This document shows, piece after piece, positions 1 through 55,307 of a stretch of 64,000 nucleotides of DNA (the first letter of the stretch is position 1; each line of letters begins with the position of its first letter). Under the pieces are notes generated by a model, which saw only the letters and a list, made by a program, of their open reading frames with translations, made no database searches and was not told where the DNA came from. Origin of the DNA: Pelecanus crispus. Taxonomy: Eukaryota; Chordata; Aves; Pelecaniformes; Pelecanidae. The position numbers and the translations under genes were made by a program. The stretch lies in the NCBI RefSeq assembly GCF_030463565.1, contig NC_134659.1, positions 7,572,511-7,636,510 of the forward strand, written 5' to 3'.

Positions 1-5980
<5,980 letters not shown>

Positions 5981-6520: not shown

Positions 6521-7858
6521 CTACAGCTCCGGTTTGGGAGAGCCGACCACCGGCACGTAGACCCCATCCCCGCCGCGCCGCTCCGGCCCCTCAACCGCGT
6601 CCTCGTCGATCTGTCCCGGGATGCGAAAATCCACGGGGGGCTGGTCCCGCTTGGGGCTGGGGGTGCGGGGCCGGGGCTCGGCGGGACAACCGGTGCCCTG
6701 GAGAAACTGGAGGAAGTTCTCCTCGATGGAGCCCTCCCGGCTGGGCAGCCGCAGGTCCTCCTCAGGCGGCTGCTTGAAGAAACACGTGAGGAGCCGTCCC
6801 AGCTCGCCCCGGATCTGCCGGTTGAGGCACCCGTAGAAGAAAGGGTTGGAGGTAAAGCAGAAGTAACCGAGCCAAGTGACCACGGTCTCGGCCGCCGGCC
6901 CCACCAAGGGCTGGGCGCTCAGGGCGATGTAGAGGTGGAAGGAGAAGTAGGGCAACCAGCAGAAGAGGAATTGGCCCCCCACGGCCAGCAGGATGGCAGC
7001 CGCCTTGCCCCCCCCGAACGTCCTCTGCGGGGTGGTACGAGGGGCTCCCGAGGTGGTGACCATGGTGGAGCGGCTGCTGAGCGACTCGGAGCGACGCCGC
7101 GGCGTCTCCATCCAGGTGGGGAGGGGGCCGTGGTGCATGGCGGCCACCCGCGCCACCTTGAACATGCTGCAGTAGACCACCACGATGATGAGGAGGGGCA
7201 GGAGGAAGTAGAAGGCGGCGAAGAAGACCACGAAGAACTTGCAGTAGGGACCGCGGCTCCATTGCAAGGAGCAGCCGCGGCCGGCGGGCACCGGCGGGCG
7301 GTCAGGGGACAGCCAGCCCAGCACGGGGACGAGGGAGGTGGCCACGGCTTTGAGCCAGACGCCGACGAGGACGCAGGCCACCAGCCCCACCGTCATCCTC
7401 ACCTCGTAGCGCATGGGGTGCACCACGTAGTAGTAACGCTCCACGTTGATGGTGGAGATGGAGAGGATGCACATGCTGATGAAGCAGACGCTGAGGAACA
7501 GGTAAACGCGGCACATGGCCTCGCCGAAAACCGGGCTGTCGAAGACGGCCGAGCCGGAGAGCATCTCCAGCGGCATCAGGGTGAGGGCGGCCAAGAAGTC
7601 CACCAGGCAGAGGTGGAAGACGAAGACGAACTTGCGCAACGCCGGCGTCTTCACGATGACGGTCATGACGGCGGCGTTGCCCACGATGGCCGTCAGGTCG
7701 ATGAGCAGCATGAAGAAGAGCCCCACCGATTTCGAGGCCACGTCTTTGGGTTTGCCGTCGGCCGTGCCGTTGGGGGGCATGGGGCCCGGGGAGGGCTGGA
7801 GCCCCCGCGCCGCCCTAGAGCCGTTCCAGGCCCACGGCGCGGGCAGGGAGGGCTCCAT
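6521..7858 (-). CDS. GPR61: GPR61, orphan class A G-protein-coupled receptor
   Basis: A single uninterrupted reading frame of 445 codons (human about 451). The N-terminus is poorly conserved and has NGS and NGT glycosylation sequons. Seven hydrophobic helices follow: TM1 near VGLFFMLLIDLTAIVGNAAV (about 45-64), TM2 with FVFVFHLCLVDFLAALTLMP, TM3 ending in the E/DRY-type motif at NVERYYYVVHP, TM6 with FCWLPYFSFHLY, and TM7 with the NPxxY variant NPFFYGCLN. The disulphide cysteines are those of EAMCRVY at TM3 and GRGCSLQW in loop 2. The third loop carries LPTWMETPRRRSESLSSRS, and the tail has LPSREGSIEENFLQFLQGTG, both nearly identical to mammalian GPR61. GPR61 is a neuronal and pituitary orphan receptor with high constitutive Gs activity. 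The start at 7,858 gives the family-like length. Stop TAG at 6,523-6,521. No frame break is seen. Confidence 0.98.
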   Translation of the reverse strand: MEPSLPAPWAWNGSRAARGLQPSPGPMPPNGTADGKPKDVASKSVGLFFMLLIDLTAIVGNAAVMTVIVKTPALRKFVFVFHLCLVDFLAALTLMPLEMLSGSAVFDSPVFGEAMCRVYLFLSVCFISMCILSISTINVERYYYVVHPMRYEVRMTVGLVACVLVGVWLKAVATSLVPVLGWLSPDRPPVPAGRGCSLQWSRGPYCKFFVVFFAAFYFLLPLLIIVVVYCSMFKVARVAAMHHGPLPTWMETPRRRSESLSSRSTMVTTSGAPRTTPQRTFGGGKAAAILLAVGGQFLFCWLPYFSFHLYIALSAQPLVGPAAETVVTWLGYFCFTSNPFFYGCLNRQIRGELGRLLTCFFKQPPEEDLRLPSREGSIEENFLQFLQGTGCPAEPRPRTPSPKRDQPPVDFRIPGQIDEDAVEGPERRGGDGVYVPVVGSPKPEL

Positions 7859-9560
7859 CCTGTGCCGCCACGCCGGCGCTCACCAGCCCATCGCCCATCC
7901 TCGGGGCGGCCAGCGCGGGGCATCGCCGGGGGCTCACATCCTCGCCCGCCCTATTGCCCGCCGCCGGCCCCGTGCTGTGGTCCGGGCACGGGTGCTGCCG
8001 CGGCGGTGGCTCTCAGAGCACCCAAGGGTGCCCCCCGGCCCCGCTCATCTCCCCGCTCCTCGCCGCCGGGCAGCACCGGGCACCTGCGGGGAAGGTAGAG
8101 CTGTCGGGGGTATTGTGACGCCTGAGGTATCGCGACACTGAGGGTACCACGATGCCGGGGCACCCGTGAGAGCCCGGGGGGGTCTGAGCTCAGCTGTGAC
8201 CCCCAGCCACAGCCCCTGGGCTCCCCTCCACGACACCCCCACCCAAACCCCCTGCTCACCCGAAAGCCTCGTTCCCTCTGAAAATGAGCAATTTTGGGGC
8301 TAAAGCCCCCCAAAGTCCAATGTTTCAACCCAAAACACCCCAGCGGGATCCTTCGCCCACAGCCCGGGGACCACGAGCGGCCGTGGGGTTGGGTGGGGGG
8401 CACTGGCACCCCAAACGCCTGGGCTCACCCCTTGCGCTTCGAGGGCCATGTGTGACCCCCCCCACCCCAAGGCCGTCCCCGGAATGGGTGCTGCACCCCC
8501 ACCCCACCCCAATGGGTGCCACCGGCTGCAAAGCGGAGCCCAGGATGCGGGTGGGAGGCTGGGGGGCACCCCGGAGCCCCCCCACCCATGGGTGCTTCCC
8601 CGGCGGGGAGGGGATCCCCAGCTCCTGCACTCCGGGGAGCGCTGGGGGGGGGGTGGGTGCTGATGGAATGGGGTGCAGGCAGCGGGTCCCCCCGCCCCTC
8701 ACCCCCCCACCCACCCCCGGGGCGATGCCGCCGGTTGGGGTCCCCCATCCCACCCCCGGGGGGGTCCCCCGGTGCTCCCCCCCCCCCCCCGGCGGCCGCA
8801 TCCCCCGCCACCCCCCCCCGCCCCCGGGCATGGCCCCGGTGGGGCGGCTCGGCCGCGGCACCTACCCTGGGGGGCTGCATGGGGCCGGGCCGGGCCGGGG
8901 GGGCCGGGCCGGGCCGGGGATGCTCGGGGCCGGGCCGGGACCGGAGCCGCTGCGGCGAGGGATGCTCTGCGCCCGCCCGGCTGCTGGGTCCTAAGCGCCT
9001 CCCGCCAGCGCGGCGGTACCGGGGGCACGGCCCCCCCCCGGGCACGGCCCCCCCCCCCGGGCACGGCCCGCCCGGCCCCGCTGCAGCTGCAGGGCGCCGG
9101 GGATGGGCGGGGGGCGGCTGGAGCCCGGCTTCACCCCCGCGGGATGGGGGATGGCGTGTGTCCCCCCCCCCCCGTGTCGCCCGCTGCGTGTTGCTTCGGG
9201 CCTCAGTTTCCCCACTCGGCCCTCAAAGGGGCTGGGGGGGGCACTGGGGGGGCTGGGGGGGGAGGTGGGTGGGAGCGGCCCCTCGGGGGCTGTGGGGTGG
9301 GGAGGCAAAGCGGGGGGTCGGGGAGAGGGGGGGTTGGAGCACGGGAGGCAGCCCGGGGTGGGGAGGAGGGGATGGGGACAGGTCCACACTGGGGGGCACG
9401 GGGTGGGGGGGACGGGGGTGGGGGGATGCACAGGGCTGGGGGGGGGCACTCAGAGGGGCCACTGAGGCCCCCAGCTCCACCCACCCCCAGCCCATTGCCC
9501 CTTCACTTGCTCCCAGTTCAGCACCGGGCAACTGGGATCCTGCCCGCCCCGCCATGCTCC
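7859..9560. other. GPR61 5' flank, CpG-rich with G/C homopolymers
   Basis: No coding exon is recognised. The stretch is very GC- and CpG-rich. It holds a GGGCCGGGCC-type tandem tract at about 8,882-8,945 and long C or G runs at 8,640-8,820 and 9,220-9,450. It probably includes the 5' untranslated region of GPR61, but I cannot place the start site or a 5' exon. Open frames on both strands here are low-complexity. Confidence 0.55.
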
Positions 9561-11039: not shown

Positions 11040-12730
11040 TGGCACCCCGGTGCCTCAGCACCCCCCCCCCACCCTGAGACTGCTGGCACCCCATTGTCCT
11101 GGCACCCCAGCACCCTGGCACTGCTGGCACCCCAGCATTCTGGCACCCCAGCACCCCAGTCCCCAAGCACCCCGCTATCCCAGCACCCTGGCACCCCAAC
11201 AACCTAACAGCTTGGCACCCCAGTACCCGTTATCTTGGCACCCCAGCACCATAGCACCCCAGCACCCCGGCACCCCGGCACCCTGGCACCCCGGCACCCC
11301 AGCACCCTGGCACCCCAGTACCTGTTATCTTGGCACCCCAGCACCCTGGCACCCCAGCACCCTGGCACCCCAATACCCCAGCACCCTGGCACCCCAGCAC
11401 CATGGCACCCTAGCACCCCGGCACCCCAGCACCCTGGCACCCCAATACCCCAGCACCCTGGCACCCCAGCACCATGGCACCCTAGCACCCCGGCACCCCA
11501 GCACCCTGGCACCCCAGTACCTGTTATCTTGGCACCCCGGCACCATGGCACCCCAGTACCCCAGCACCCCAGTACCTCAGCGTCCTGGCACCCTGGCACC
11601 CCAGCACCCTACGGCAGCCCAGCAGCCCAGCATCATGGCACTGTGGCACCCTACCGTCCTGGCACCCCGGTGCTGAGCACCCCAGCACCCTGCCATACCC
11701 GTAACCCAGCACCCCAGAATTCTGGCATCTGGGCACCCTGGCAACCTGCCATACCTGAACCCCAGCACCCCAGCACTCTGGCCCCCCAGGACCCTGGCAT
11801 ATCTGTACCCCGGCGCTCCAGCACCCTGGCATAGCCGTACCCCAGCACCCCAGCAGCCCAGCACCCTGGCATAGCTGTATCCCAGCACCCCAGCACCCTG
11901 GCATAGCTGTATCCCAGCACCCCAGGCCCCTGGCACCCTGGCATACCCGTACCCTGGCATTCCAGCACCCCAGCACTCTGGCACCCCAGCACCCTGTCAT
12001 AGCTGTACTCCAGCACCCCAGCACCCTGGCATACCTGAAACCCAGCACCCTGGCACCCCAGCACTCCGTCACCCCTGCACCCCAGCCCCTTGGCACCCTG
12101 GCATACCCATACCCCAGCACCCTGGCACCCTGGCATACCTGTACCCCAGCACCCCAGCCCCTTGGCACCCTGGCATACCCGTACCCCAGCACCCTGGCAC
12201 CCTGGCATACCCGTACCCCAGCACCCCAGCCCCTTGGCACCCCGGCATACCTGTACCCCAGCACCCCAGCCCCTTGGCACCCTGGCATACCCGTACCCCA
12301 GCACCCTGGCACCCTGGCATACCCGTACCCCAGCACCCCAGCCCCTTGGCACCCTGGCATACCCGTACCCCAGCACCGCAGCCCCTTGGCACCCCGGCAT
12401 ACCTGTACCCCAGCCTCTTGACACCCTGGCATACCTGTACCCCAGCACCCCAGCCCCTTGGCACCCCAGCATACCTCTACCCCAGCCCCTTGGCACCCCG
12501 GCATACCCGTACCCCAGCACCCCAGCCCCTCGGCACCCCGGCATACCTCTACCCCAGCCCCTTGGCACCCCGGCATACCCGTACCCCAGCACCCCAGCCC
12601 CTCGGCACCCTGGCATACCTGTACCCCAGCACCCCAGCACCCTGGCATACCCGTACCCCAGCACCCTGGCTCCCTGGCACCCCGGCACCCCGGCACCCCG
12701 GCACCCCAGCACCCCAGCACAGCTGGAAGG
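11040..12730. repeat. Minisatellite, GCACCCCAGCACCCTG family
   Basis: About 1.7 kb of tandem sequence is built from GCACCCCA and GCACCCTG octamers. In the second half (from about 11,680) they are interleaved with GCATACCCGTACCCCA and CCCCTTG variants, giving units of about 30-50 bp. All frames stay open for long distances, with products rich in His/Pro/Thr on one strand and Gly/Cys/Val on the other, because the units are short and stop-free. Intergenic between GPR61 and AMIGO1. Confidence 0.95.
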
Positions 12731-13079: not shown

Positions 13080-13950
13080 TGGGCAGCTGGCACCAATCCT
13101 GCCTGGCACCAATCCTGCCCCCCCGCCAGGGCGCCTGGGTCCCCGCCAGGTCCCCACCGCGGTGGCACAAGGACAGGGGCACCCGGAGCCCACGGGTGGG
13201 CCGAGGGGGCCGGGGCGTGGGTGCTGCCAGCCGGGGCACCCCTGCTGCGGGGTAGGGGGTCTGGGTGCTGGGTGGGGGCTGGGCAGCGGGTGCTGGGCAG
13301 GGATTAGCACCCGGATTAAAGAAATTGAGGGCAAGCAAAGGACAAAATTCCCCGTCACCGGCCCAGCAGCCAGGGGGGATGATGGCAGCGAGGGGGGGAC
13401 GGCGTGGGGTGGCACCCAGCTAGGGGGCACGGGTGCAGGCAGCAGCTGGGGGTGGGGCCCAGGGCGAGGGGCACCCTGGGGACACCCTGCTCTGGGTGGC
13501 CCGGGGCTCCCCTTTAATTACTGCCCCCCCCCCCCCCATAAAAAGCCGCATCATCGCGGCGCGGTTTGTTCCGGCCCCTTTCCCTGTCGTTTTGGACCCA
13601 AAAAAATGGCACAAATGTGGTGCATCTAAAAATACGCCCGGGAGGCAGAGGCGAGGCCGCGTGGCGGGGGGGCAGCACCCAGGGGTGCCCCTCGGAGGGG
13701 ACGCCAGGGCGGGATGTGTCCCCTCCATCCCGGGGGTGGTGGGTGGCACTGGGATGGGGCCAGTGCCGGGGAATTTGGGCCGGAACAGGGGGTGGGGGCC
13801 AGTGCCGCAGGGTGGGGGTCAGTGCCGGGGGGTGGGGGTCAGTGCCAGGGGGTGGGGGCTGGCTCGGTGGGCTGCGGGCTGGTGCAGCTGGTGGGTGCCA
13901 GCACAGGGGGATGGGGCAGGTACTGGGGCGGCACAGAGGGATTTGGGATG
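13080..13950. other. GC-rich spacer with an AT-containing unique island
   Basis: This lies between two repeat arrays. 13,510-13,640 is non-repetitive and contains TTTAATTACTG, a C-run, CATAAAAAGCC (TATA-like), CCCAAAAAAATGGC and CTAAAAATACG (MEF2-like, last base off consensus). It could be a promoter or enhancer element, but no transcript can be assigned. The remainder is G-rich low-complexity sequence grading into the next array. Confidence 0.35.
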
Positions 13951-15262
13951 GGGATAGGGATGGGATGGGATGGGATGGGATGGGATGGGATGGGATGGGG
14001 ACAGGGGTGAGATGGGGACGAGGATGGGGATGGGGACAGGGATGGGGACCGGGATGGGAACAGGGATGGGATGGGGATGGGATGGGAGTGGGGACAGGGA
14101 TGGGATGGGGACAGGGATGGGATGGGGATGGGAATATGATGGGAATGGGGATGGGGACAGGGATAGGATGGGAATGGGGACAGGGATGGGATGGGGATGA
14201 GGATGAGGATGGAGGTGGGGACAGGGATGGGATGGGGATGGGATAGGGATGGGGATGGGATGGGATGGGATAGGGATGGGGATGGGATGGGATGGGATAG
14301 GGATGGGGATGGGATGGGGACAGGGATGGGATAGGGATAGGATGGGAATGGGGACAGGGATGGGATGGGGATGGGATTATGATGGGAATGGGGATGGGGA
14401 CAGGGATAGGATAGAGATGATGAGGATGGGGATGGGGATGGGGACAGGGATAGGATGGGAATGGGGACAGGGATGGGATGGTGATGGGGATGGGGACAGG
14501 GATGGGATGGGGATGGGGACAGGGATGGGATAGGGATGGGGATGGGGATGGGATGGGGATGGGGACAGGGATGGGATGGGGATGGGGACAGGGATGGGAT
14601 GGGGATGGGGATGGGGACAGGGATGGGATGGGGATGGGGACAGGGATGGGATGGGGATGGGGATGGGGGTGGGGATGGGGACAGGGATGGGATGGGGATG
14701 GGGACGGGGATGGGATGGGGATGGGGATGGAATGGGATGGGGATGGGGACAGGGATGGGATGGGGATGGGGATGGGGACAGGGATGGGATGGGGATGGGG
14801 ACAGGGATGGGATGGGGATGGGGATGGGGACAGGGACGGGATGGGGATGGGGACAGGGGTGGGGTGGGGTTGAGGATAGGGGTGACGGGGATGGGATGGG
14901 GACAGGGATGGGATGGTGATGGGGATGGGGGTGGGGATGGGGACAGGGATGGGATGGGGGTGGTGATGGGGGTGGGATGGGGATGGGATGGGGATGGCAG
15001 ACAGGGGTGGGATGGGGGTGGTGATGGGGGTGGGATGGGGATGGGGACGGGATGGGGATGGAGACAGGGGTGGGGTGGGGTTGAGGATGGGGGTGACGGG
15101 GATGGGATGGGGATGGGGATGGGGACAGGCATGGGATGGAGGTGAGGATGGGGGTGACGGGGATGGGATGGGAATGGGGATGGGGACAGGCATGGGATGG
15201 AGGTGAGGATGGGGGTGACGGGGATGGGATGGGGATGGGGATGGGATGGCGATGGGATGGGG
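13950..15262. repeat. GGGATGGGGACA minisatellite, copy A
   Basis: About 1.3 kb consists of GGGAT, GGGGAT and GGGGACA units, G-rich on the plus strand throughout. The run of closely spaced GGG and GGGG blocks has strong G-quadruplex potential. From 14,167 onward it is repeated, with different unit counts, after the N gap (19,222-20,100). Peptides such as MGMGTGMGW arise from the repeat and are not genes. Confidence 0.95.
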
Positions 15263-15399
15263 CGGGGATGAGGCGCGGTGGCAGGGCTGTGGGGATGCAG
15301 AGGGGGATGGGGATGACGGGGATGGGCACAGGAACGGGGCGGGCCGGGGGCCGGGGCCGGCACCGGGGGCTCCGGGGGGGCTCGGCCGGGGGGCGCCGC

Positions 15400-15556
15400 G
15401 CGGCCCAGGAGGGGTTAAGCGGGCGCTGCCGCCATTGGTCGGGGCGCTGCGGCGGCAGCCAATGGGGACCGGCCGTGCGCGGGGTGCGCCGCGCCGGGCC
15501 CGCCCCCAGACCCTGTCCCGGGCCGCGGGTGCGCGCTGCGGCCGGCGGGGGGCTCG
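15400..15556 (+). promoter_or_regulatory. Probable AMIGO1 promoter, copy A (paired CCAAT boxes)
   Basis: A short unique CpG-rich segment lies between two repeats. It carries two CCAAT boxes in opposite orientation, ATTGG at 15,434-15,438 and CCAAT at 15,459-15,463, with GC-rich flanks. It is about 2.3 kb upstream of the AMIGO1 start codon. AMIGO genes usually carry the whole coding sequence in one exon behind a 5' untranslated exon, so this is a reasonable promoter and first-exon site. The same sequence recurs at about 20,250-20,400. Confidence 0.45.
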
Positions 15557-15895
15557 GCCCGGCCCGCTCGGCTCCGCTCGGCTCCGCTCGGCTCCGCTCG
15601 GCTCCGCTCGGCTCCGCTCGGCTGGGCTCGGCTCCGCTCGGCTCGGCTGGGCTCGGCTCGGCCGGTCGCTCGGCTGCGCTCGGCTCCGCTCGGCCCCGCT
15701 CGGCTCGGCCCTGCCCGGTCGCTCGGCCCCACTCGGGCCCGCTCGGCTCCGCTCGGCTCCGCTCGGCCCCACTCGGCCCGGTCGCTCGGCTCCGCTCGGC
15801 CCACTCGTCTCGGTTCGACGCTGCCCGGCTCGGTTCGGCCTCGCTCGGCTCCCTTCGGCTCCCTTCGGCTCCCTTCGGTCCGGCTCGGCCTCCCC
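15557..15895. repeat. GCTCGGCTCC minisatellite, copy A
   Basis: Tandem decamers GCTCGGCTCC with variants (GCTCGGCCCC, GCTGGGCTCG, TTCGGCTCCC) run head to tail. Recurs at 20,405-20,755 with a few units fewer or more. Confidence 0.9.
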
Positions 15896-16109
15896 TCAGC
15901 GCCCTCCTCCGCACCGGCCCCGGTACCGGGCCCCGGTAACGCCCCGGGAAGGGGGGGGGGGGCGGTGGGCATCCTCCCGCGGGCTCCGTCCGCAGCGGGG
16001 CCGGGGCCGGGAGGGGGCGGGGGGGCCGGGGCCGCCTCCGCAGCGCGGGGGGAGCGGGGCTGCGGCGGGCGGGACCCCCGGGGCGGGCGGGGACCCGGGC
16101 ACGGCGTGA

Positions 16110-17660
16110 CAGCGGCGAGGAGCGAGCCCCGTGACAGCGGGTGCCGAGCCGCCCCATGGCGCGTGCTGTGACATGGGTGACCAAGCCACCCCGCGCCGTG
16201 ACACCGGGTGAGCAGCGAGCCCGGTGCATGCCGTGACACCGGGTGACAAAGCCAGCCCATGCTGTGACACCGTGTGACCAAGCCACCGCGCGCCGTGACA
16301 CCGGCTGAGCAGCGAGCCCGGTGCATGCCGTGACACCGGGTGACAAAGCCACCCCTCACTGCCGCACCGGGTGACGCCAGGCAAGCAGCGAGCCCGGCGC
16401 GTGCCGTGGCACCGGGTGACAAAGCCACCCCCATTCTGCAACGCGGCGTGACCAAACCACCGCGCGCCGTGACGCCGGGTGAGCAGCGAGCCCGGTGCAT
16501 GCCGTGACACTGGGTGACAAAGCCACCCCACTCTGCAACACCGTGTGACCAAGCCACCCCACACCGTGACACCGGTGTGAGCAGCGAGCCCGGCGCGTGC
16601 CGTGACAGCGGGTGACAAAGCCACCCCTCACTGCCGCACCGGGTGACGCCAGGCAAGCAGCGAGCCCGGCGCGTGCCATGGCACCGGGTGACAAAGCCAC
16701 CCCACTCTGCAACGCGGCGTGACCAAACCACCGCGCGCTGTGACGCCGGGTGAGCAGCGAGCCCGGTGCATGCTGTGACACTGGGTGACAAAGCCACCCC
16801 ACTCTGCAACACCGTGTGACCAAGCCACCCCACACCGTGACACCGGGTGAGCAGCGAGCTCGGCACATGCTGTGACAGCGGGTGACAAAGCCAGCCCATG
16901 CTGTGACACCGTGTGACCAAGCCACCCCGCGCCGTGACACCGGCTGAGCAGCGAGCCCAGCGCGTGCCGTGGCACCGGGTGACAAAGCCACCCCACTCTG
17001 CAACGCCGCGTGACCAAACCACCGCGCACCGTGACACCGGGTGAGCAGCGAGCCCGGCGCATGCCGTGACAGTGGGTGACAAAGCCACCCCATGCTGTGA
17101 CACCACATGACCAAACCACTCCACGCCGTGACACTGGGTGAGCGGCGAGCCTGGTGCATGCCGTGACACCGGGTGACAAAGCCCACCCCTCACTGCCGCA
17201 CCGGGTGACGCCAGGCAAGCAGCAAGCCCGGCACGTGCCATGGCACCGGGTGACAAAGCCACCCCACTCTGCAACGCGGTGTGACCAAACCACCGCGCGC
17301 CGTGACACCAGGTGAGCAGCGAGCCGGGTGCGTGCCTGACACCGGGTGACCGAAGCCACCCCATGCTGTGACACCAGGTGACCACAGCCACTCCGCATCG
17401 TGGCACTGGGCTCTCAGCGAGCCTGGTGCACGCCCTGTCACTGGGTGACCAAAGCCACCCCGCACCGTGACACCAGCTGAGCAGCGAGCCCGGTGCGTGC
17501 CGTGACACCGGCTGGCCCAAGCCACCCTATAGCACATGCTGTGATGCGGGGTGACAAAACCACCCCACTCTGCAACACCGCGTGACCAAACCACCCCGCA
17601 CCGTGACACCGGGTGAGCAGCGAGCCCGGTGCGTGCCGTGACACCGGGTGACCGAAGCCA
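16110..17660. repeat. CCGTGACACCGGGTGAGCAG minisatellite upstream of AMIGO1, copy A
   Basis: Roughly 1.55 kb of composite units, each combining CCGTGACACCGGGTGAGCAG, GTGACAAAGCCACCCC and TGTGACCAAGCCACC phrases, with unit spacing of about 75-115 bp. Each composite unit carries one or more GGGTGAGC strings resembling 5' splice sites in the AMIGO1 direction. The array ends about 100 bp before the AMIGO1 start codon, so it probably lies in the 5' untranslated region or 5' intron. Copy B is at 20,970-22,430. Confidence 0.9.
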
Positions 17661-17767
17661 CCCCGTGCGAGCCAACCCCGTGCCGCCAGCCCGCCGTGCT
17701 GGGCGTCGTGAGCATGCCGGCGCCGCGTCCCCAGCACCCGTGCGACGCCGTGGGGCGGAGCGCGGCC

Positions 17768-19021
17768 ATGGGGAGCAGCGAGGGGCCGGCGGCCCCGCTG
17801 CCGCTAATGCCGCTGCTGCTGGCGCTGGTGCTGCTGGCGCCGTGGGGGTCTGCGGGCGGGAGCTGCCCCCCGCGCTGCGTCTGCGCCTCCAACATCCTGA
17901 GCTGCTCGCAGGCGGTGCTGAGCTCGGTGCCGGCCCCCCTGCCCCGCTTCACCGCCGTCCTCGACCTCAGCCACAACAACGTCAGCCGGCTGCGCGCCGA
18001 CTGGGCGCCGGGGCGCCTGGCCCACCTCCACGCCTTGCTGCTCAGCCACAACGGGCTCTCCTTCGTCTCCACCGAAGCCTTCGCCCACGTCCCCCACCTC
18101 CGGCACCTGGACCTCTCCTCTAACCGCCTCCGGGCGCTGGAGGAGAACCTCTTCAGCGACCTGACCGAGCTGGAGGTGCTGCTCCTCTACAACAACGAGA
18201 TCTCTGCCGTGGACCGCACCGCCTTCGATAACCTCGCCGTCTCCGTAAGCTTTACCTGGGGCAAAACCGCATCGCCCGCTTCCCGCTGGAGCTGCTGCGC
18301 GACGGCAGCCGCCTGCCGCAGCTGGCCCTGCTCGACCTCTCGGCCAACCGGCTCCGCAGCTTGCCCGTCGGCGAGCTGCAGGCGCTGCCCGCCTGGCTGC
18401 GCGACCGCCTCTACCTGCACAACAACCCGCTGCCTGCGACTGCCCGCTTTTCCAGCTGGTCGCCCGCGGTCGTCGCCGCCGGCTGAGCGCCGTGATGGAT
18501 TTCCAGGAGGAGTTGCGGTGCTTGCTGCCTGCCGCCTCGGCGCCCGTCGGTATCCTCGCCCTGGCTGGCCGGCAGCCGCTCAACTGCAGCGAGGCGCGGG
18601 AAGCGGTGCTGGAAGCCCACCTGGGTGACACCGTCACCCTCAGCTGCGACACCCGGTTGCGGGGGGTGCGTAGCCGGCACTGGGTGACGCCGGGAGGCGA
18701 ACGGGTGTTGGAGGAAGGGGGTAACGGCAGCGCCGCTCTCCTGGCGAACGGCAGCCTGCAGCTGCGGGTGCTGCGCCCCGAGGACGCCGGCACCTACTCC
18801 TGCTGGGTGGCAGGTCCCTCCTCAACGAGACCCTCTACGTGGAGCTGCTGGTGCACAACTTCACCCTGCACGGTCCCCACGACACCCTCAACACCGCCTA
18901 CACCACGCTGGTGGGCTGCATCCTCAGCGTGGTGCTAGTGCTCATCTACCTGTACCTCACTCCGTGCCGCTGCTGCTGCTGCCGCGGCGCCGACAAGCCG
19001 CCGGCTCCCCGCGACGACAGC
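17768..19021 (+). CDS. AMIGO1: AMIGO1, copy A, cut off at the assembly gap
   Basis: This has the same gene content as 22,537-23,795: signal peptide, LRRNT (CPPRCVCASNILSCS), leucine-rich repeats, LRRCT, Ig domain and the transmembrane segment TTLVGCILSVVLVLIYLYLT, stopping at the N gap just after the membrane-proximal Arg/Asp region. Compared with copy B it lacks single bases near 18,235 (which turns DNLGHLRKLYLG out of frame), near 18,431, and near 18,813, and has a few substitutions. At the stretch around VTPGGERVLEEGG it holds the correct frame where copy B does not. The errors are complementary, and the contig ends exactly at the gap, so I read this as a second haplotype or unmerged read consensus of one gene rather than a pseudogene. 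The start at 17,768 precedes a typical signal peptide; an upstream in-frame ATG gives only unconserved residues. Confidence 0.9.
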
Positions 19022-19221
19022 NNNNNNNNNNNNNNNNNNNNNNNNNNNNNNNNNNNNNNNNNNNNNNNNNNNNNNNNNNNNNNNNNNNNNNNNNNNNNNN
19101 NNNNNNNNNNNNNNNNNNNNNNNNNNNNNNNNNNNNNNNNNNNNNNNNNNNNNNNNNNNNNNNNNNNNNNNNNNNNNNNNNNNNNNNNNNNNNNNNNNNN
19201 NNNNNNNNNNNNNNNNNNNNN
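19022..19221. other. Assembly gap, 200 N
   Basis: Exactly 200 N, the usual placeholder for a gap of unknown size. The sequence on its left matches sequence 4.8 kb to the right, so the true gap is probably an overlap of negative length. Confidence 0.98.
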
Positions 19222-20100
19222 GGATGGGAATGGGGACAGGGATGGGATGGGGATGAGGATGAGGATGGAGGTGGGGACAGGGATGGGATGGGGATGGGAT
19301 AGGGATGGGGATGGATGGATGGATAGGGATGGGGATGGGATGGGATGGGATAGGGATGGGGATGGGATGGGGACAGGGATGGGATAGGGATAGGATGGGA
19401 ATGGGGACAGGGATGGGATGGGGATGGGATTATGATGGGAATGGGGATGGGGACAGGGATAGGATAGAGATGATGAGGATGGGGATGGGGATGGGGACAG
19501 GGATAGGATGGGAATGGGGACAGGGATGGGATGGTGATGGGGATGGGGACAGGGATGGGATGGGGATGGGGACAGGGATGGGATAGGGATGGGGATGGGG
19601 ATGGGGATGGGGATGGGGATGGGGACAGGGATGGGATGGGAATGAGGACAGGGATGGGATGGGGATGGGGACAGGGATGGGATGGGGATGGGGATGGGGG
19701 TGGGGTGGGGTTGAGGATAGGGGTGACGGGGATGGGATGGGGACAGGGATGGGATGGGGACAGGGATGGGATGGTGATGGGGATGGGGGTGGGGATGGGG
19801 ACAGGGATGGGATGGGGGTGGTGATGGGGGTGGGATGGGGATGGGGACAGGGGTGGGATGGGGGTGGGATGGGGATGGGATGGGGATGGGGGACGGGATG
19901 GGGATGGAGACAGGGGTGGGGTGGGGTTGAGGATGGGGGTGACGGGGATGGGATGGGAATGGGGATGGGGACAGGCATGGGATGGAGGTGAGGATGGGGG
20001 TGACGGGGATGGGATGGGAATGGGGATGGGGACAGGCATGGGATGGAGGTGAGGATGGGGGTGACGGGGATGGGATGGGAATGGGGATGGGATGGCGATG
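19222..20100. repeat. GGGATGGGGACA minisatellite, copy B
   Basis: Starts at the gap with sequence equal to 14,167 onward and follows the same order of variants, with about 220 fewer bases overall and a local GGATGGATGGAT difference at 19,313-19,323. G-quadruplex-prone on the plus strand. Confidence 0.95.
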
Positions 20101-20249
20101 GGATGGGGCGGGGATGAGGCGCGGTGGCAGGGCTGTGGGGATGCAGAGGGGGATGGGGATGACGGGGATGGGCACAGGAACGGGGCGGGCCGGGGGCCGG
20201 GGCCGGCACCGGGGGCTCCGGGGGGGGCTCGGCCGGGGGGCGCCGCGCG

Positions 20250-20400
20250 GCCCAGGAGGGGTTAAGCGGGCGCTGCCGCCATTGGTCGGGGCGCTGCGGC
20301 GGCAGCCAATGGGGACCGGCCGTGCGCGGGGTGCGCCGCGCCGGGCCCGCCCCCAGACCCTGTCCCGGGGCCGCGGGTGCGCGCTGCGGCCGGCGGGGGG
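20250..20400 (+). promoter_or_regulatory. Probable AMIGO1 promoter, copy B
   Basis: Repeats 15,400-15,556: ATTGG at 20,281-20,285 and CCAAT at 20,306-20,310 in a CpG-rich unique segment. Near-identical to copy A with single-base run-length differences. Confidence 0.45.
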
Positions 20401-20404
20401 CTCG

Positions 20405-20755
20405 GCCCGGCCCGCTCGGCTGCGCTCGGCTCCGCTCGGCTCCGCTCGGCTGGGCTCGGCTCCGCTCGGCTCCGCTCGGCTCGGCTGGGCTCGGCTCGGC
20501 CCGGTCGCTCGGCTGCGCTCGGCTCCGCTCGGCCCCGCTCGGCTCGGCCCTGCCCGGTCGCTCGGCCCCACTCGGCCCCGCTCGGCTCGGCCCGGCCCGC
20601 TCGGCTCCGCTCGGCTCCGCTCGGCCCCACTCGGCCCGGTCGCTCGGCTCCGCTCGGCCCCACTCGTCTCGGTTCGACGCTGCCCGGCTCGGTTCGGCCT
20701 CGCTCGGCTCCCTTCGGCTCCCTTCGGCTCCCTTCGGTCCGGCTCGGCCTCCCCT
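20405..20755. repeat. GCTCGGCTCC minisatellite, copy B
   Basis: Second assembled copy of the decamer array at 15,557-15,895, with small differences in unit order. Confidence 0.9.
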
Positions 20756-20969
20756 CAGCGCCCTCCTCCGCACCGGCCCCGGTACCGGGCCCCGGTAACG
20801 CCCCGGGAAGGGGGGGGGGGGGGGCGGTGGGCATCCTCCCGCGGGCTCCGTCCGCAGCGGGGCCGGGGCCGGGAGGGGGCGGGGGGGGCCGGGGCCGCCT
20901 CCGCAGCGCGGGGGGAGCGGGGCTGCGGCGGGCGGGACCCCCGGGGCGGGCGGGGACCCGGGCACGGCG

Positions 20970-22430
20970 TGACAGCGGCGAGGAGCGAGCCCCGTGACAG
21001 CGGGTGGCCGAGCCGCCCCATGGCGCGTGCTGTGACATTGGGTGACCAAGCCACCCCGCGCCGTGACACCGGGTGAGCAGCGAGCCCGGTGCATGCCGTG
21101 ACACCGGGTGACAAAGCCAGCCCATGCTGTGACACCGTGTGACCAAGCCACCGCGCGCCGTGACACCGGCTGAGCAGCGAGCCCGGCGCGTGCCGTGACA
21201 CCGGGTGACAAAGCCACCCCTCACTGCCGCACCGGGTGACGCCAGGCAAGCAGCGAGCCCGGCGCGTGCCGTGGCACCGGGTGACAAAGCCACCCCATTC
21301 TGCAACGCGGCGTGACCAAACCACCGCGCGCCGTGACGCCGGGTGAGCAGCGAGCCCGGTGCATGCCGTGACACTGGGTGACAAAGCCACCCCACTCTGC
21401 AACACCGTGTGACCAAGCCACCCCACACCGTGACACCGGGTGAGCAGCGAGCCCGGCGCGTGCCGTGACAGCGGGTGACAAAGCCACCCCTCACTGCTGC
21501 ACCGGGTGACGCCAGGCAAGCAGCGAGCCCGGCGCGTGCCATGGCACCGGGTGACAAAGCCACCCCACTCTGCAACACCGTGTGACCAAGCCACCCCACA
21601 CCGTGACACCGGCTGAGCAGCGAGCTCGGCGCATGCTGTGACAGCGGGTGACAAAGCCAGCCCATGCTGTGACACCCGTGTGACCAAGCCACCCCCGCGC
21701 CATGACACCAGCTGAGCAGCGAGCCCGGCGCGTGCCGTGACAGCGGGTGACAAAGCCACCCCCACTCTGCAACGCCGCGTGACCAAACCACCGCGCACCG
21801 TGACACCGGGTGAGCAGCGAGCCCGGCGCATGCCGTGACAGTGGGTGACAAAGCCACCCCATGCTGTGACACCACATGACCAAACCACTCCACGCCGTGA
21901 CACTGGGTGAGCGGCGAGCCCGGTGCATGCCGTGACACCGGGTGACAAAGCCACCCCTCACTGCCGCACCGGGTGACGCCAGGCAAGCAGCAAGCCCGGC
22001 ACGTGCCATGGCACCGGGTGACAAAGCCACCCCACTCTGCAACGCGGTGTGACCAAACCACCGCGCGCCGTGACACCAGGGTGAGCAGCGAGCCGGGTGC
22101 GTGCCTGACACCGGGTGACCGAAGCCACCCCATGCTGTGACACCAGGTGACCACAGCCACTCCGCATCGTGGCACTGGGCTCTCAGCGAGCCTGGTGCAC
22201 GCCCTGTCACTGGGTGACCAAAGCCACCCCGCACCGTGACACCAGCTGAGCAGCGAGCCCGGTGCGTGCCGTGACACCGGCTGGCCCAAGCCACCCTATA
22301 GCACATGCTGTGATGCGGGGTGACAAAACCACCCCACTCTGCAACACCGCGTGACCAAACCACCCCGCACCGTGACACCGGGTGAGCAGCGAGCCCGGTG
22401 CGTGCCGTGACACCGGGTGACCGAAGCCAC
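20970..22430. repeat. CCGTGACACCGGGTGAGCAG minisatellite, copy B
   Basis: Second assembled copy of 16,110-17,660, about 90 bases shorter, with one composite unit missing or rearranged near 21,560-21,780 and several run-length differences. It ends about 100 bp before the copy B AMIGO1 start codon. Confidence 0.9.
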
Positions 22431-22536
22431 CCCGTGCGAGCCAACCCCGTGCCGCCAGCCCGCCGTGCTGGGCGTCGTGAGCATGCCGGCGCCGCGTCCC
22501 CAGCACCCGTGCGACGCCGTGGGGCGGAGCGCGGCC

Positions 22537-24023
22537 ATGGGGAGCAGCGAGGGGCCGGCGGCCCCGCTGCCGCTAATGCCGCTGCTGCTGGCGCTGGTGC
22601 TGCTGGCGCCGTGGGGGTCCGCGGGCGGGAGCTGCCCCCCGCGCTGCGTCTGCGCCTCCAACATCCTGAGCTGCTCGCAGGCGGTGCTGAGCTCGGTGCC
22701 GGCCCCCCTGCCCCGCTTCACCGCCGTCCTCGACCTCAGCCACAACAACGTCAGCCGGCTGCGCGCCGACTGGGCGCCGGGGCGCCTGGCCCACCTCCAC
22801 GCCTTGCTGCTCAGCCACAACGGGCTCTCCTTCGTCTCCACCGAAGCCTTCGCCCACGTCCCCCACCTCCGGCACCTGGACCTCTCCTCTAACCGCCTCC
22901 GGGCGCTGGAGGAGAACCTCTTCAGCGACCTGACCGAGCTGGAGGTGCTGCTCCTCTACAACAACGAGATCTCTGCCGTGGACCGCACCGCCTTCGATAA
23001 CCTCGGCCATCTCCGTAAGCTTTACCTGGGGCAAAACCGCATCGCCCGCTTCCCGCTGGAGCTGCTGCGCGACGGCAGCCGCCTGCCGCAGCTGGCCCTG
23101 CTCGACCTCTCGGCCAACCGGCTCCGCAGCTTGCCCGTCGGCGAGCTGCAGGCGCTGCCCGCCTGGCTGCGCGACCGCCTCTACCTGCACAACAACCCGC
23201 TGGCCTGCGACTGCCCGCTTTTCCAGCTGGTCGCCCGCGGTCGTCGCCGCCGGCTGAGCGCCGTGATGGATTTCCAGGAGGAGTTGCGGTGCTTGCTGCC
23301 TGCCGCCTCGGCGCCCGTCGGTATCCTCGCCCTGGCTGGCCGGCAGCCGCTCAACTGCAGCGAGGCGCGGGAAGCGGTGCTGGAAGCCCACCTGGGTGAC
23401 ACCGTCACCCTCAGCTGCGACACCCGGTTGCGGGGGGTGCGTAGCCGGCACTGGGTGACGCCGGGGAGGCGAACGGGTGTTGGAGGAAGGGGGTAACGGC
23501 AGCGCCGCTCTCCTGGCGAACGGCAGCCTGCAGCTGCGGGTGCTGCGCCCCGAGGACGCCGGCACCTACTCCTGCTGGGTGGCAGGGTCCCCTCCTCAAC
23601 GAGACCCTCTACGTGGAGCTGCTGGTGCACAACTTCACCCTGCACGGTCCCCACGACACCCTCAACACCGCCTACACCACGCTGGTGGGCTGCATCCTCA
23701 GCGTGGTGCTGGTGCTCATCTACCTGTACCTCACCCCGTGCCGCTGCTGCTGCTGCCGCGGCGCCGACAAGCCGCCGGCTCCCCGCGACGACAGCATCAA
23801 CTCCTCCGTCCTCAGTGCCACCCCCAACCACGCCACCGGCGTCCCCGGGGAGCCTTGCCGCTCCCGCTCGGCCTCCGCCACCGGCCCGGGGCAGAACGGC
23901 AGGTTCAAGGTGGGGGGGCACCCCCCAGCCGCCCCCCCCGGCACGGCCCCCAAGGCGCAGAGGAAGGTGTCGGATCCGGACTCGGTCAGCTCCGTCTTCT
24001 CCGACACCCCCATCGTGGTGTAG
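22537..24023 (+). CDS. AMIGO1: AMIGO1, full-length copy B (two one-base frame breaks)
   Basis: Type I membrane adhesion protein of neurons and an auxiliary subunit of Kv2.1 channels. Residues 1-31 are a signal peptide; 33-47 the LRRNT cysteines (CPPRCVCASNILSC); about 60-215 hold six leucine-rich repeats (LDLSHNNVSRL, LDLSSNRLRAL, LLLYNNEISAV); 219-275 the LRRCT (NNPLACDCPLFQL); about 285-365 an Ig domain (VTLSCDT to GTYSCWV); about 379-399 the membrane helix TTLVGCILSVVLVLIYLYLT, then a palmitoylation-type CRCCCCRG. The C-terminus VSSVFSDTPIVV is identical to human AMIGO1. Coding is in one exon. The frame shifts once at the G-run 23,463-23,466 and once at the C-run 23,589-23,592, each by one surplus base compared with copy A. 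Without those two bases the length is 494 residues (human 493). I take these as consensus errors, not gene loss. Confidence 0.96.
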
Positions 24024-25738: not shown

Positions 25739-25767
25739 TTTTTTTTTTTTTTTTTTTTTTTTTTTTT
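25739..25767. repeat. Poly(T) run
   Basis: An uninterrupted T run of about 29 bases on the plus strand (poly(A) on the minus strand), flanked by C-rich sequence. It may be a simple repeat or a remnant poly(A) tail; no target-site duplication was identified. Confidence 0.8.
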
Positions 25768-34000: not shown

Positions 34001-37000
34001 TCCCTGCTCCCATCCCTGCATCCCCACTATGTGCCCCCCCAGTTCAGGTGGGAAGGGTTGAGATGGGGCCCCCCCAAATCCCTGCTCCCATCCCTGACCC
34101 CTGCTATGTGCCCCCCCATTTCAGGTGGGAAGAGGTTGAGACGGGGACCCCCGAAATCCCTGCTCCCATCCCTGCATCCCCACTACGTGCCCCCCAACTT
34201 CAGGTGGGAAGGGTTGAGACAGGACCCCCCCAAATCTCCGCTCCCATCCCTGACCCCTGCTATGTGCCCCCCCCACTTCAGGTGTGCAGGGGTTGAGACG
34301 GGACCCCCCCAAATCCCCGCTCCCATCCCTGCATCCCCACTATGTGCCCCCCAATTCAGGTGCGGAGGGGTGAGATGGGACCCCCCAAATCCCCGCTCCC
34401 ATCCCTGCATCCCCACTACGCGCCCCCCCCCAACTCAGGCGCGGAGGGGTTGAGACGGGACCCCCCCCCACCCTGGGGTGCCCCCTCACTCACCGCCTGG
34501 GGCCGCGGCGGGCGCGTGGGGGGGCCGGGGGGGCTCCTCGCCCCCCTCCTCCTCGCTCTCCTCGCTCGACACCCGGTTGCCCCCCTTGGGCAGGGGGAAG
34601 GGGAACACCCCCGTGCCCCCCTCCCCGCAGGCGGCCGGCGCGTCCTCGGCGTCGCTGTCGGAGGAGAGCCGGGCCCTGCGCCGGCGGGCGGGGGTGAGAG
34701 ATTTTTGGGGTGCCCGAAGCGGGGGGTGCCGTGTCGTGTCCCCCCCCCCCCCCGCCGCCGCCGGGGTCCTCACCTGGGGAGCGGGCAGTGGGCGTGGGGC
34801 AGCTTGGCTCGGCACGGGGAGGTGCTGGGGGGGGCCGGCGGGGGTCTGCGGCAGCGAGGAGGGGTCCTGCTGGAGGGGGGGCAGCGGGTCCTTGCCGGGG
34901 GGGCTCCTCTCTTTTGGGGAGTCACCCTTGCGGGAGCTGGCCTTCAGCTCGGCCACCAGCACGTCAAAGTCCTTGGCCCGGCCCCGCACCTCGCGGCGCT
35001 GGTGAACCGAGTGGATCTGTGCCGGGCGACAGCGGCGAGGCGGGGGGTCAGGCTCAAGAAAAACACCCGCCGGGACCCCCCACCTCTCAACCACCCCCAA
35101 GCAGGATGACGGTGCCCCCCCCCTCCCCCGGTACCTTGCAGGTCAGCAAGCGGGTGCAGATTTTCTTGGTGTCGGGGTTGAGCACGCCGCACTGCCGGTT
35201 CAGGTCGCACTCCTTGCCTGCGGGCAGAGGAAGGCAGCGGGATGCCGGGGGGGCCCGGGGGGCCGAGCGGCGTCGGGGGCAGAGGGGGGAAGCCCCCCGC
35301 CCCCCCGCCATGTCCAGCCCCGGTCGAGGTTCCCGTGGACGGTGGGATGAGAGCGGCGGCGGCGGGGCGGGGGGCTCCAGCGGCTGCGGTGGGGGGGGGG
35401 GGGCACGGCGTCACCGGGCCCACCGCCGGCCGGCCGTGGGGCGGGGGGCTCTGTGGGGTGACCCCAGCCCACCCGGGCCAGGGCTGGCGATGGAGACCCC
35501 CCGCTTCTCGCAGCGAGAGGCCGCTGCGTCCGCCCGACTCCCGTTTCTGCGCGGGAGTTGCGGGGCGGGGGGACAGGGACGGGACGACACAACCGGGAGA
35601 TTGGGGGTGGGGGGTGGGGGGGGGTGGGATTCAACCCTGGCTCACGCTCTTGCCGCACGCCGCCACCGCCGCCGTTTCCTCCGGGCCAGCCGGCACCGCG
35701 GGCAGAGACCCTAAACCTGCCGGGTGAACGGAGCTGCGGTCAGGGCACGGCTCCCCCGGCTGCGGGAGGAAGAGGTGGGAGCTGCCCCCTCGGTACCTAC
35801 CCCGCTGCCAGGCCCGGCCGCCGCAATAACGGGACCAGGATGCCGCGCCGGGACGCGGTGCCGCGTGGCGCCCACCTGCCGCCCCCACCCCGCCGCCGGC
35901 ACGGAAAGGGGGACTCACGCGCCAGCTTCTTGTGGGACCTGGGGGGCGGCTTGGAGGCACCCGCGTCCTTCTCCCCCGGGGCGGGCGCGCTCTCCGGTTT
36001 GCACCCGGGGCCGTCGGCGGGCATCGCCGAATCCCCCCCGACCCCGGCCGACGCCGGGGGCTCTTTGGGCACCGCGGCGGCGGCGGGTTTCCCCAAGGGT
36101 TCCTTGGTGGGTACGGCTTTGGGGGGCACCTTGATCCCGTGCCCGTCTGCTTTGGGAATGCTGGGAATCTTCTCCAGGTTGACCACGGGCACGAACAAGC
36201 TGGGGAGAGAATTTAGGGGTGGGGGGGGGGGGCGGGGGTCAGCGCGGCCGCGCGGCGGGGAAGGGGCCGAGCCGCCCGTCCCGGCGCTCACCAGAGGTTG
36301 TCCTTGTCCGGTCGCTCGGGCAGGGCCTGGACTCGCCCGCGGGCGCCGGGGGGCTTCTCCCGCAGCGCCTTGGCCGCGCCGGGGGTCCCGCCGGCCGCCG
36401 GTTGCCCGTTGACGGCGGCGTGGCACTTGGTGGCGGCGGTGGCGGCGGCGGCGCGGGCGTACAGCTTGCTGAGCGGGCCGTGGCGGCGTTCTGCCGGGAC
36501 AGGGCGGGATGGGGAGGGCGCGTGGCGGGGGGAAAGCCCGGCGTTAGCCACCGCCACCAGCCCCCCAACCCGGGCTGTGCCGGCACCGCCAGCCCCGGCT
36601 GCGCTCCCACATCCCTCCCGACGCCGGAGGGGATGCCGTGGGGGGGGGATAGCCGCGCCCGGAGCCGCCCCCGGCTCACCGCAGTGCTTCTGGAAGGCCT
36701 GGGGCTTCACCACCTGGCTGCAGTGGTTGCAAACCACCAGGTAAAACTCGTCGTGCGCCGGGCAGTGGCCGAAGATGTTCATGTCTGCGGGGCGAGAGTT
36801 CGGTGAGCGGTGCGGCACGGCTCCCGCCGGCGCCGGGGGAAGCGTCGCAGCCTGAGGGTCGAGGCCGGAGGGCGAGCACGGCCCCAAAATGCCGGGTTTT
36901 CTCCCCAAAGGAGGGAGCTTACCTTCCTTAATCAGGGTCATGGCGTCCAGCTTCTTGCCGCCGCTCTTCCCGCTCTCCTCCAGCTCCGACCCCGATCCTG

Positions 37001-40000: not shown

Positions 40001-42569
40001 AGTTCCCAGTTCCCAGCGCTGGCTGCCTGGTTCCCGGTTCTGGGTGCCCAGTTCCCGGTTCCCGGTGCCCAGTCACTGCTGCCCAGTTCCCAGTGCCCAG
40101 TTCCCAGCGCTGGCTGCCTGGTTCCCGGTTCTGGGTGCCCAGTTCCCGGTTCCCGGTGCCCAGTCACTGCTGCCCAGTTCCCGGTGCCCAGTTCCCAGCG
40201 CTGGCTGCCTGGTTCCCAGTGCTGGGTGCCAGGTTCCTGGTGCCCAGTTGCCGCTGCCCAGTTCCCGGTGCTGGGTGCCCAGTGCCTGGTTCCTGATGCC
40301 CACTGCCCAGTGCTGGGTTCCTGGTGCCTGGTTACTGGGTGCCCAGTTCCCAGTGCCCGGTTCCCAGTGCTGGGTGCCAGGTTCCTGGTGCCCAGTTCCC
40401 GCTGCTGGGTGCCCAGTTCCCAGTGCCCGGTTCCCAGTACTGGATGCCTGGTTCCTGGTGCTGGGTTCCCAGTGCCCAGTTCCTGGGTACCCAGTTCCCA
40501 GTGCCCGGTTCCCGGCGCCTGGTGCTGGGTGCCAGGTTCCTGGTGCCCAAATCCCAGTGCTGGGTGCCCGGTTCCTGGTGCTGGGTGCCCAGTTCCCTGT
40601 TCCTGATGCCCACTGCCCAGTGCAGGCTTCCCAGTGCCTGGTTACTGGATGCCCATTTCCCAGTGCCCAGTTCCCGGTGCCCACTGCCCAGTGCAGGGCT
40701 CCCAGTGCCTGGTTCTGGGTGCTGGCTGCCAGATTCCCAGTGCCCAGTCAGTGCTGCCTGGTTCCCGCTGCCCAGTTCCCGGTTCCCGATGCCCACTGCC
40801 CAGTGCTGGGTTGCTGGTGCCCAGTTGCTGGGTGCCCATTTCCCAGTGCCCGGTTCCCGGTGCCCAGTTCCTGGTGCTGGGTGCCCAGTGCTGGCTGCCC
40901 GGTTCCCGGTTGCTGGGTGCCCATTTCCCAGTGTCCAGTTCTCGGTGCCCAGTTCCCAGTGCTGGATGCCAGGTTCCTGGTGGCCAGTTGCCGGTGCCTG
41001 GATCCCAGTGCTGGGTGCCCAGTTCCCGGTTCCCGATGCCCAGTGCCCGGTTCCCGGTGCCCAGTTCCCGGTGCTGGGTGCCAGATTCCTGGTGCACAGT
41101 CACCGCTGCCTGGTTCCCGGTGCCTGATTCCCAGTGCTGGCTGCCCGGTTCCCGGTGCCCAGTCACCACTGCCTGGTTCCCAGTTCCCGGTGCTGGGTTC
41201 CCAGTTCCCGGTGCTGGGTTCCCAGTTCCCAGTTCCCGGTTCCTGGTGCTGGCTGCCTGGTTCCCGGTGCCCAGTCACCGCTGCTGGGTTCCTGGTGCCC
41301 AGTCACCGCTGCCCGGTTGCCGGTGCCCGGTTCCCAGTGCTGGGTGCCTGGTGCCCGGTTCCCGGTGCCCAGTCACCGCTGCCCGGTTCCCGGTGCCTAG
41401 TTCCCAGTGCTGGGTGCCTGGTGCCCGGCGCTGGGTTCCCGGTTCCCAGTTCCCAGTGCTGGCTGCCCGGTTCCCGGTGCCCAGTTCCCAGTGCTGGCTG
41501 CCCGGTTCCCGGTGCCTGGTTCCCAGTGCTCGGTCCCAGTTCCCGGTGCCCGGTTCCTGGTGCCCAGTCACCGCTGCCCAGTTCCCAGTGCTGGCTGCCT
41601 GGTTCCCAGTGCCCAGTCACCGCTGCCCGGTTCCCAGTGCTGGCTGCCCGGTTCCCGGTTCCCGGTGCCCAGTCACCGCTGCCCGGTTCCCAGTGCTGGC
41701 TGCCCGGTTCCCGGTTCCCAGTGCTGGCTGCCCGGTGCCCGGTTCCCAGTCACCGCTGCCCACTTCCCAGTGCCCAGTTCCCGGTGCTGGCTGCCCGGTT
41801 CCCGGTGCCTGGTTCCCAGTTCCCGGTTCCCAGTGCTGGCTGCCCGGTTTCCGGTGCCTGGTTCCCGGTGCCCAGTCACCGCTGCCCGGTTCCCGGTGCC
41901 TAGTTCCCAGTGCTGGGTGCCCAGTGCCTGGCGCTGGGTTCCCGGTTCCCAGTTCCCAGTGCTGGCTGCCCGGTTCCCGGTGCCCGGTTCCCAGTGCTGG
42001 CTGCCCGGTTCCCGGTGCCTGGTTCCCGGTGCCCAGTCACCGCTGCCCGGTTCCCAGTGCTGGCTGCCCGCTGCCCGGTTCCCGGTGCCCAGTCACCGCT
42101 GCCCGGTTCCCAGTGCTGGCTGCCCGCTGCCCGGTTCCCGGTACCCAGTCACCGCTGCCCGGTTCCCAGTGCTGGCTGCCCGCTGCCCGGTTCCCGGTAC
42201 CCAGTCACCGCTGCCCGGTTCCCAGTGCTGGCTGCCCGGTTCCCGGTGCTGGGTTGCCGGTGCCCGGTTCCCGGTGCCCACCGCCCCAGCGCTGCCTCCC
42301 GGCCGCCCGCTGCCCGCCTACCGCGCGGCGGCGCTAGGACCGGGGGGCGGCGGGCGCGGTTCCCTTCGCGGCAGCCCCCCCCCCCCGCCCCCCCCCGCCC
42401 GCCCCCGCCGCCGCCGCCGCCGCCGCCGCCGCCCCTCACCCGGCTCTGCCGGCGGCCCGGCCCGCTCCACCCAGGCGCTCCAGCTCTGCCCCGCGAACTC
42501 GTCCAGGCTGGGCAGCCGCCGCTCCGCCGCCATCGCCGCCGCCGCCGCCGCGCGCCCACGCGCCGCCAT
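28043..42569 (-). CDS. ATXN7L2: ATXN7L2, ataxin-7-like SAGA subunit (ten coding exons seen)
   Basis: Paralogue of ataxin-7, the anchor of the SAGA deubiquitinase module in the nucleus. Coding exons on the minus strand: 42,569-42,440, 36,997-36,923, 36,784-36,680, 36,490-36,292, 36,199-35,919, 35,217-35,135, 35,016-34,774, 34,675-34,494, 33,228-33,132 and 28,876-28,043; nearly all have GT-AG borders and matching phases. Exon 1 gives RRLPSLDEFAGQSWSAWVER. Exon 3 holds the N-terminal zinc finger, FGHCPAHDEFYLVVCNHC with a later HC-ERRH. The SCA7 domain spans exons 5-7 (KKLARKECDLNRQCGVLNPD). Exon 9 to 10 reads SMLERHLSSHMWRKIPPAAEP. A serine/acid stretch (VSSEESEEEGGEE) is in exon 8. The upstream of two in-frame ATGs (42,569, not 42,533) matches the mammalian N-terminus. 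Three G/C runs (34,674-34,676, 28,482-28,489, 28,117-28,124) each need one base fewer to keep frame; the total is then 742 codons, close to the human 722. The last visible residues are GFEEKRSALK before a GTAGGG donor; the terminal exon was not found. Confidence 0.96.
28965..32200. repeat. 78-bp minisatellite in the ATXN7L2 intron between exons 9 and 10
   Basis: About 40 head-to-tail copies of a 78-bp unit carrying AAATCTCCGCTCCCATCCC, TGCATCCCCTCTACGTACC, CCGATTTAGGTGGGGAGGGG and TGAGATGGGGCCCCCC. The period is exact in the centre (TACGTAC at 30,131, 30,209, 30,287). Edge units are more diverged, as expected of older units at array margins. The same family reappears at 33,340-34,470. On the plus strand many frames stay open, giving PKSPLPSLHPLYVPPRF-like peptides that are not genes. 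Confidence 0.96.
32330..33131 (-). repeat. Array of six partial copies of ATXN7L2 exon 9 with its 5' splice site
   Basis: Downstream of the true exon 9 (33,228-33,132) its last 40-50 bases recur six times at about 33,035, 32,915, 32,801, 32,679, 32,497 and 32,394. They read CATGCTGGAGCGGCACCTCA and CTCCCACATGTGGAGGTGAG on the minus strand and are separated by CAGCACCCCC repeats. In the exon frame a copy encodes SMLERHLSSHMWR. Most copies keep the AG|GTGAGG donor. Copies at 32,679 and 33,035 read GTGGTGGTGAGG instead, still with GGTGAG. None has the acceptor end of the exon, so they cannot be whole exons; they could act as alternative 5' splice sites. Confidence 0.9.
33340..34470. repeat. 78-bp family minisatellite in the ATXN7L2 intron between exons 8 and 9
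   Basis: About 14 units related to the 28,965-32,200 array, with variant phrases CATCCCCACTATGTGCCCCC and TTCAGGTGTGCAGGGGTTGAG. Units alternate between those with CTGCATCCCCACTA and those with CTGACCCCTGCTA, suggesting a two-unit higher-order period. The two arrays flank exon 9. Confidence 0.92.
37420..38790. repeat. 32-bp minisatellite in ATXN7L2 intron 1
   Basis: About 43 units of CCATACTGGGTGCCCAGTCC plus a variable CCAGCTGTG or TCTGGCCAAG arm; period 32 bp (for example 37,921 and 37,953). Marker variants such as GGACATCCAGTCCCATCTGG recur about 320 bp apart, so ten-unit blocks have been copied. Intronic. Confidence 0.95.
39190..42260. repeat. GGTTCCCGGTGCCCAGTTCC minisatellite in ATXN7L2 intron 1
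   Basis: About 3 kb of TTCCCGGTGCCCAG and TTCCCAGTGCTGGCTGCC modules. Between 39,720 and 40,200 a higher-order unit of about 84 bp (marked by CAGTCACTGCTGCC) repeats six times. Further blocks marked by CAGTCACCGCTGCC follow to 42,210. Up to 911 codons stay open in one frame; amino-acid content is only Pro, Val, Ser, Cys, Gly, Ala and a few others, so it is not a gene. Confidence 0.95.
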
Positions 42570-42607
42570 CGCCGCCGCCGCGGGAGCGCGCGCGCCCCCC
42601 CCCCGCT

Positions 42608-42638: not shown

Positions 42639-42640
<2 letters not shown>

Positions 42641-43965: not shown

Positions 43966-43969
43966 CCGG

Positions 43970-48507: not shown

Positions 48508-55307
<6,800 letters not shown>

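Follow-up and report, generated by a model that had tools for sequence, protein, structure and literature searches.

On either side of a single gap in this bird assembly stands a copy of AMIGO1 together with its upstream region, and the question that the locus raises is whether the genome holds two tandem genes or whether one gene has been assembled twice. The window studied is a stretch of 64,000 bases (C17:7,572,511-7,636,510; C17 is 9.53 Mb in length), and positions are counted from its first base. Judged from the sequence, this is very probably a false tandem duplication produced by assembly, in which one AMIGO1 locus is represented by two unmerged contig ends, rather than a real gene duplication. 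In the following paragraphs we discuss the gap, the two copies and their neighbours, and then the ways in which such an arrangement could arise.

A scan of all 64,000 bases of the window reveals one run of N, exactly 200 long, at 19,022-19,221 (no strand assigned). It is also the sole N run across 264,000 contiguous bases of C17; the gap sample behind our reading is one gap in 264 kb. The two pieces of assembly that meet at this gap form a dovetail. End-to-end alignment matches the terminal 4.86 kb of the left piece (14,166-19,021) with the initial 4.57 kb of the right piece (19,222-23,795), both on the plus strand, such that a suffix of the one corresponds to a prefix of the other, both terminate at the gap, and the gap lies between the copies. 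Semi-global alignment pairs the first base of the right piece (19,222) with 14,166, from which point 92 bp match exactly, followed by 4 bp over a small unit shift and another 283 bp of exact identity; at the opposite end, 23,736-23,795 is identical to the final 60 bases of the left piece. The original prediction held that the copies abut the 200-N gap. Both do end at the N run; the left copy starts at 14,166 and not, as had been proposed, at 14,167. A global alignment begun at 14,167 yields 4,495 identical positions, 39 differing positions and 31 indel events. Chance similarity can be ruled out, since the alignment spans the whole right piece with an E value reported as 0. When the interval 22,000-23,000 (1,001 bases, as DNA) was used as the query against the 1.31-Gb genome in 310 contigs, 18 matches were listed, two of them full-length and both inside the window, the others being partial or weak; no third full-length AMIGO1 place was found among the matches listed in this DNA search.

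The order of elements is common to both copies: a G-rich minisatellite, a CCAAT pair, a decamer array, a CCGTGACACC array and AMIGO1. This is the order that had been predicted on the left and right of the gap, and the arrays reported by TRF and the CCAAT pair do fall at corresponding places, all on the plus strand. The minisatellite, composed of GGGATG-type units, occupies 13,945-15,270 on the left; on the right (19,222-20,121; TRF and alignments) it begins within the array and possesses several unit blocks fewer. Motifs of four G-runs, of the G-quadruplex type, are dense here, with 44 non-overlapping examples on the plus strand in the 1,326 bp of the left array and 25 in the 900 bp of the right one, whilst a stretch of 20,001 bp nearby has 15 of them on this strand and 86 on the opposite one. 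At such a density of these motifs the quality of the sequence is likely to suffer. Shortly downstream of the very dense minisatellite at 13,945-15,270 comes the CCAAT pair of AMIGO1, which consists of an inverted box (ATTGG) at 15,434 and a direct CCAAT at 15,459 in the left copy (15,434-15,463) and of the same boxes at 20,281 and 20,306 in the right (20,281-20,310). The decamer array, with GGCTCCGCTC as its unit, is found by TRF at 15,551-15,889 and 20,399-20,748. TRF likewise places the CCGTGACACC array, with periods of 31, 97 and 271 among others, at 16,158-17,668 and 21,032-22,434, and the left array exceeds the right by one 97-bp block at 16,686. This higher-order array stops some 45-50 bases short of the ATG that opens the AMIGO1 frame. 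A further array, with TRF periods of 40, 72 and 112 bp, is present beyond the duplicated stretch at 12,021-12,714.

Substitutions between the copies amount to 20 in 897 aligned positions (2.2%) of the minisatellite, 3 in 329 of the decamer array and 11 in 1,411 of the CCGTGACACC array. The two non-repeat stretches show none (0/276 and 0/268), and the AMIGO1 part has five in 1,353 (0.37%), all five being transitions and three leaving the protein unchanged. Over these three non-repeat segments, 1,897 aligned positions in all, the five substitutions stand against nine indels of 1-3 bases. Larger indels are found in every array. Those of the minisatellite measure 45, 18, 65, 67 and 12 bp, those of the decamer array 10 and 19 bp, and the CCGTGACACC array has the 97-bp one already mentioned. 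The divergence outside the repeats is allele-like, and whole repeat units differ; the five transitions and the whole-unit differences are consistent with alleles, and also with a very recent duplication. The one-base indels number 19, and in 15 of them the left copy is the shorter (p 0.019, two-sided binomial test); the base concerned is G or C in 16 of the 19. An initial count had given 16 of 20 (p 0.012), from which the indel at the first base of the right piece was dropped because semi-global alignment pairs that base.

The gene is identified as AMIGO1 (amphoterin-induced protein 1) by its LRR domain and its closest sequence match. Pfam identifies LRR_8 in both copies; the first open part of the right copy matches PDB entry 2xot, Amphoterin-induced protein 1 (E=2.3e-106); and the closest sequences are those of birds, the best match being the AMIGO1 of an ibis, Theristicus caerulescens (95% identical, with 93% of the query covered), from which the source is taken to be a bird. 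Located by tblastn with bird AMIGO1, the left copy runs from 17,714 to 19,021 on the plus strand, in four pieces covering residues 1-437 only, and the right copy extends in full over 22,483-24,023 on the same strand, with its stop codon at 24,021-24,023. The original prediction that AMIGO1 is assembled twice is correct in that there are two copies, but the left one is not a whole gene and neither is open. With a 511-residue bird AMIGO1 as the frame reference, the left copy is distributed over three frames and ends at residue 437, directly against the N run, so that it lacks the last 75 codons (225 bases) and the stop that follows them. Each break was called as a contraction or an expansion by asking which of the two copies stays in the conserved frame there. 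By this measure the left copy carries one-base contractions near 18,236, 18,432 and 18,815, and the two frame breaks of the right copy are one-base expansions near 23,463 and 23,587. Sites 18,815 (left) and 23,587 (right) correspond to one another and carry errors of opposite direction. There are accordingly four break sites: two in the left copy only (contractions), one in the right only (an expansion) and one in both, in opposite directions. The copies also differ in their letters near 18,236, so that a genuine allelic difference may be present there in addition to the missing base. Two noisy consensus ends would be expected to give just such independent run-length errors, opposite in direction, within a single conserved gene. 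A run of 29 T residues (25,739-25,767) lies downstream of AMIGO1.

The neighbouring genes offer both a control and a map. GPR61, on the minus strand at 6,524-7,879, reads through 452 codons with no stop and matches the 7tm_1 domain over its full length and GPR61 in the PDB with E=8.9e-203; this one control gene (n=1), of a length similar to that of AMIGO1 and about 10 kb from its left copy, has an open frame. Also on the minus strand are a GNAI3-like exon at 5,357-5,473 (Pfam G-alpha, below the cut-off, E 0.0026) and a SYPL2-like exon at 51,994-52,197 (Pfam MARVEL, below the cut-off, E 7.2e-05), and proteasome exons of the PSMA5 type are located on the plus strand near 57.3 and 59.5 kb. Two short minus-strand stretches, 34,909-34,974 and 36,915-36,986, are presumably ATXN7L2-like; a Pfam search of the two gave no match. 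The ATXN7L2-like, SYPL2-like and other neighbour stretches were chosen by composition, and the composition lists, one of which covered 4-57 kb above a score limit, contain no second copy of any of them. The human gene order has one AMIGO1 slot here, and CYB561D1 would be expected in that order; CYB561D1 was not identified in the window. The neighbours, namely GPR61 and the PSMA5-type exons together with the weakly matched G-alpha and MARVEL types, fit the single AMIGO1 slot of that order. The highest GC content of any 2-kb bin in the window, 83%, is found at 42,001-44,000.

A dovetail alone does not prove a false duplication, because the same picture would result if a gap covered the junction of a genuine tandem copy. 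We must therefore consider a real and very recent tandem duplication of AMIGO1 with its junction within the gap, which would give two near-identical copies on one scaffold and with which the dovetail by itself is compatible. Such an event seems highly improbable. Both copies are broken as assembled, mostly at different places, and it would be a strange coincidence if a fresh duplicate had been pseudogenised twice over; in place of two complete genes and a sequenced junction we find a left copy truncated at the gap, no junction, and two broken frames. For the truncation at the N run and the broken frames, two independent genes were rejected as the lead reading. The 283-bp stretch of identical minisatellite and the fit of the neighbours to a single-copy order likewise speak against a real duplication, as does the position of the gap exactly between the copies. 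The last is a published mark of false duplications, which are described as most often gap-separated, a property absent in the true duplications examined (PMC9516828). A duplication on one haplotype only, i.e. a copy-number polymorphism that was assembled with a gap, could be supported by unequal crossing-over in the tandem-repeat-rich DNA beside the gene; the same points count against it, no feature of the sequence calls for it, and we regard it as more improbable still.

If the duplication is false, its kind has to be decided. The VGP report attributes heterotype errors to divergent haplotypes and places homotype errors near contig boundaries (PMC8081667). A purely homotype error would mean here that the same haplotype was written twice, with consensus noise at two contig ends. 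The location at such a boundary, the excess of small indels over substitutions in the non-repeat segments and the one-base errors that break the two AMIGO1 frames in opposite directions all favour this, and it is a possibility that we hold to be real, if rather unlikely. One-base run-length errors do occur in both copies, yet unit-count differences and transitions are present as well: blocks of 97, 67, 65 and 45 bp differ between the copies, and the substitutions in the AMIGO1 part, all transitions and mostly silent, resemble allelic variation. Errors of noisy reads can favour transitions too. A mixed or heterotype error appears about twice as likely as a purely homotype one, and of the options first suggested, a pair of alleles or a pair of noisy consensus builds, probably both apply.

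The unmerged contig overlap first proposed for this locus therefore stands as the best reading, in view of the opposite one-base errors, the left copy cut at the N run, the single-slot neighbours and the published marks of such errors. According to this reading of a false duplication, both assembly pieces would end inside the AMIGO1 locus, the 4.86 kb on the left and the 4.57 kb on the right being the same place. The ends would differ in repeat-unit counts, most likely because they derive from two haplotypes, and in homopolymer lengths, the consensus being poor where the DNA is very rich in G and in repeats. The overlap may have gone unrecognised because differences in repeat length between the haplotypes, together with run-length errors, hid it, and the scaffolder would then have placed one contig after the other, separated by a spacer of fixed length (200 N).

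An error of this sort looks like a well-known kind. Scaffolding is described by the VGP as yielding tandem copies with a gap between them (PMC8081667), and the AMIGO1 case has in common with those of the two reports on heterotype and homotype false duplications (PMC8081667, PMC9516828) tandem, near-identical copies on one scaffold, an intervening gap, a location at contig ends, allele-level divergence and consensus noise. It differs in that their cases are based on depth and k-mers and ours on the assembled sequence. It resembles overlaps of the type handled by purge_dups in that two scaffolded contigs overlap in part where they meet; unlike those, the AMIGO1 overlap remained, perhaps owing to the differences in repeat length. 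A study of GC-rich bird genes that assemblies have missed names AMIGO1 once, its expression being confirmed by mass spectrometry of chicken fat (P < 0.05) (PMC5470226). The GC-rich region of a bird chromosome and AMIGO1 as one of the genes handled are common to that work and to ours; the genes there are missing from assemblies, whereas AMIGO1 is here present twice (PMC5470226). A literature search for a duplication of AMIGO1 in birds found none, and the match that it gave concerned the little skate.

The AMIGO1 locus as assembled would give false gene counts, promoter distances and claims of copy number, and in automated annotation the gene may be labelled as duplicated and pseudogenised; the immediate use of the finding is a curation note. 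The locus also provides a compact example of how a gene in a bird assembly can end up doubled and with broken frames through differences in repeat length combined with GC-rich runs. There is an even chance, in our estimation, that each copy represents a genuine haplotype of a single bird or else, as the less likely alternative, that AMIGO1 has recently undergone a true duplication in tandem. In the former event the arrays within 4 kb upstream of AMIGO1, the G-quadruplex-type minisatellite and the CCGTGACACC array, would be polymorphic in length within that individual and could tune the expression of the gene.
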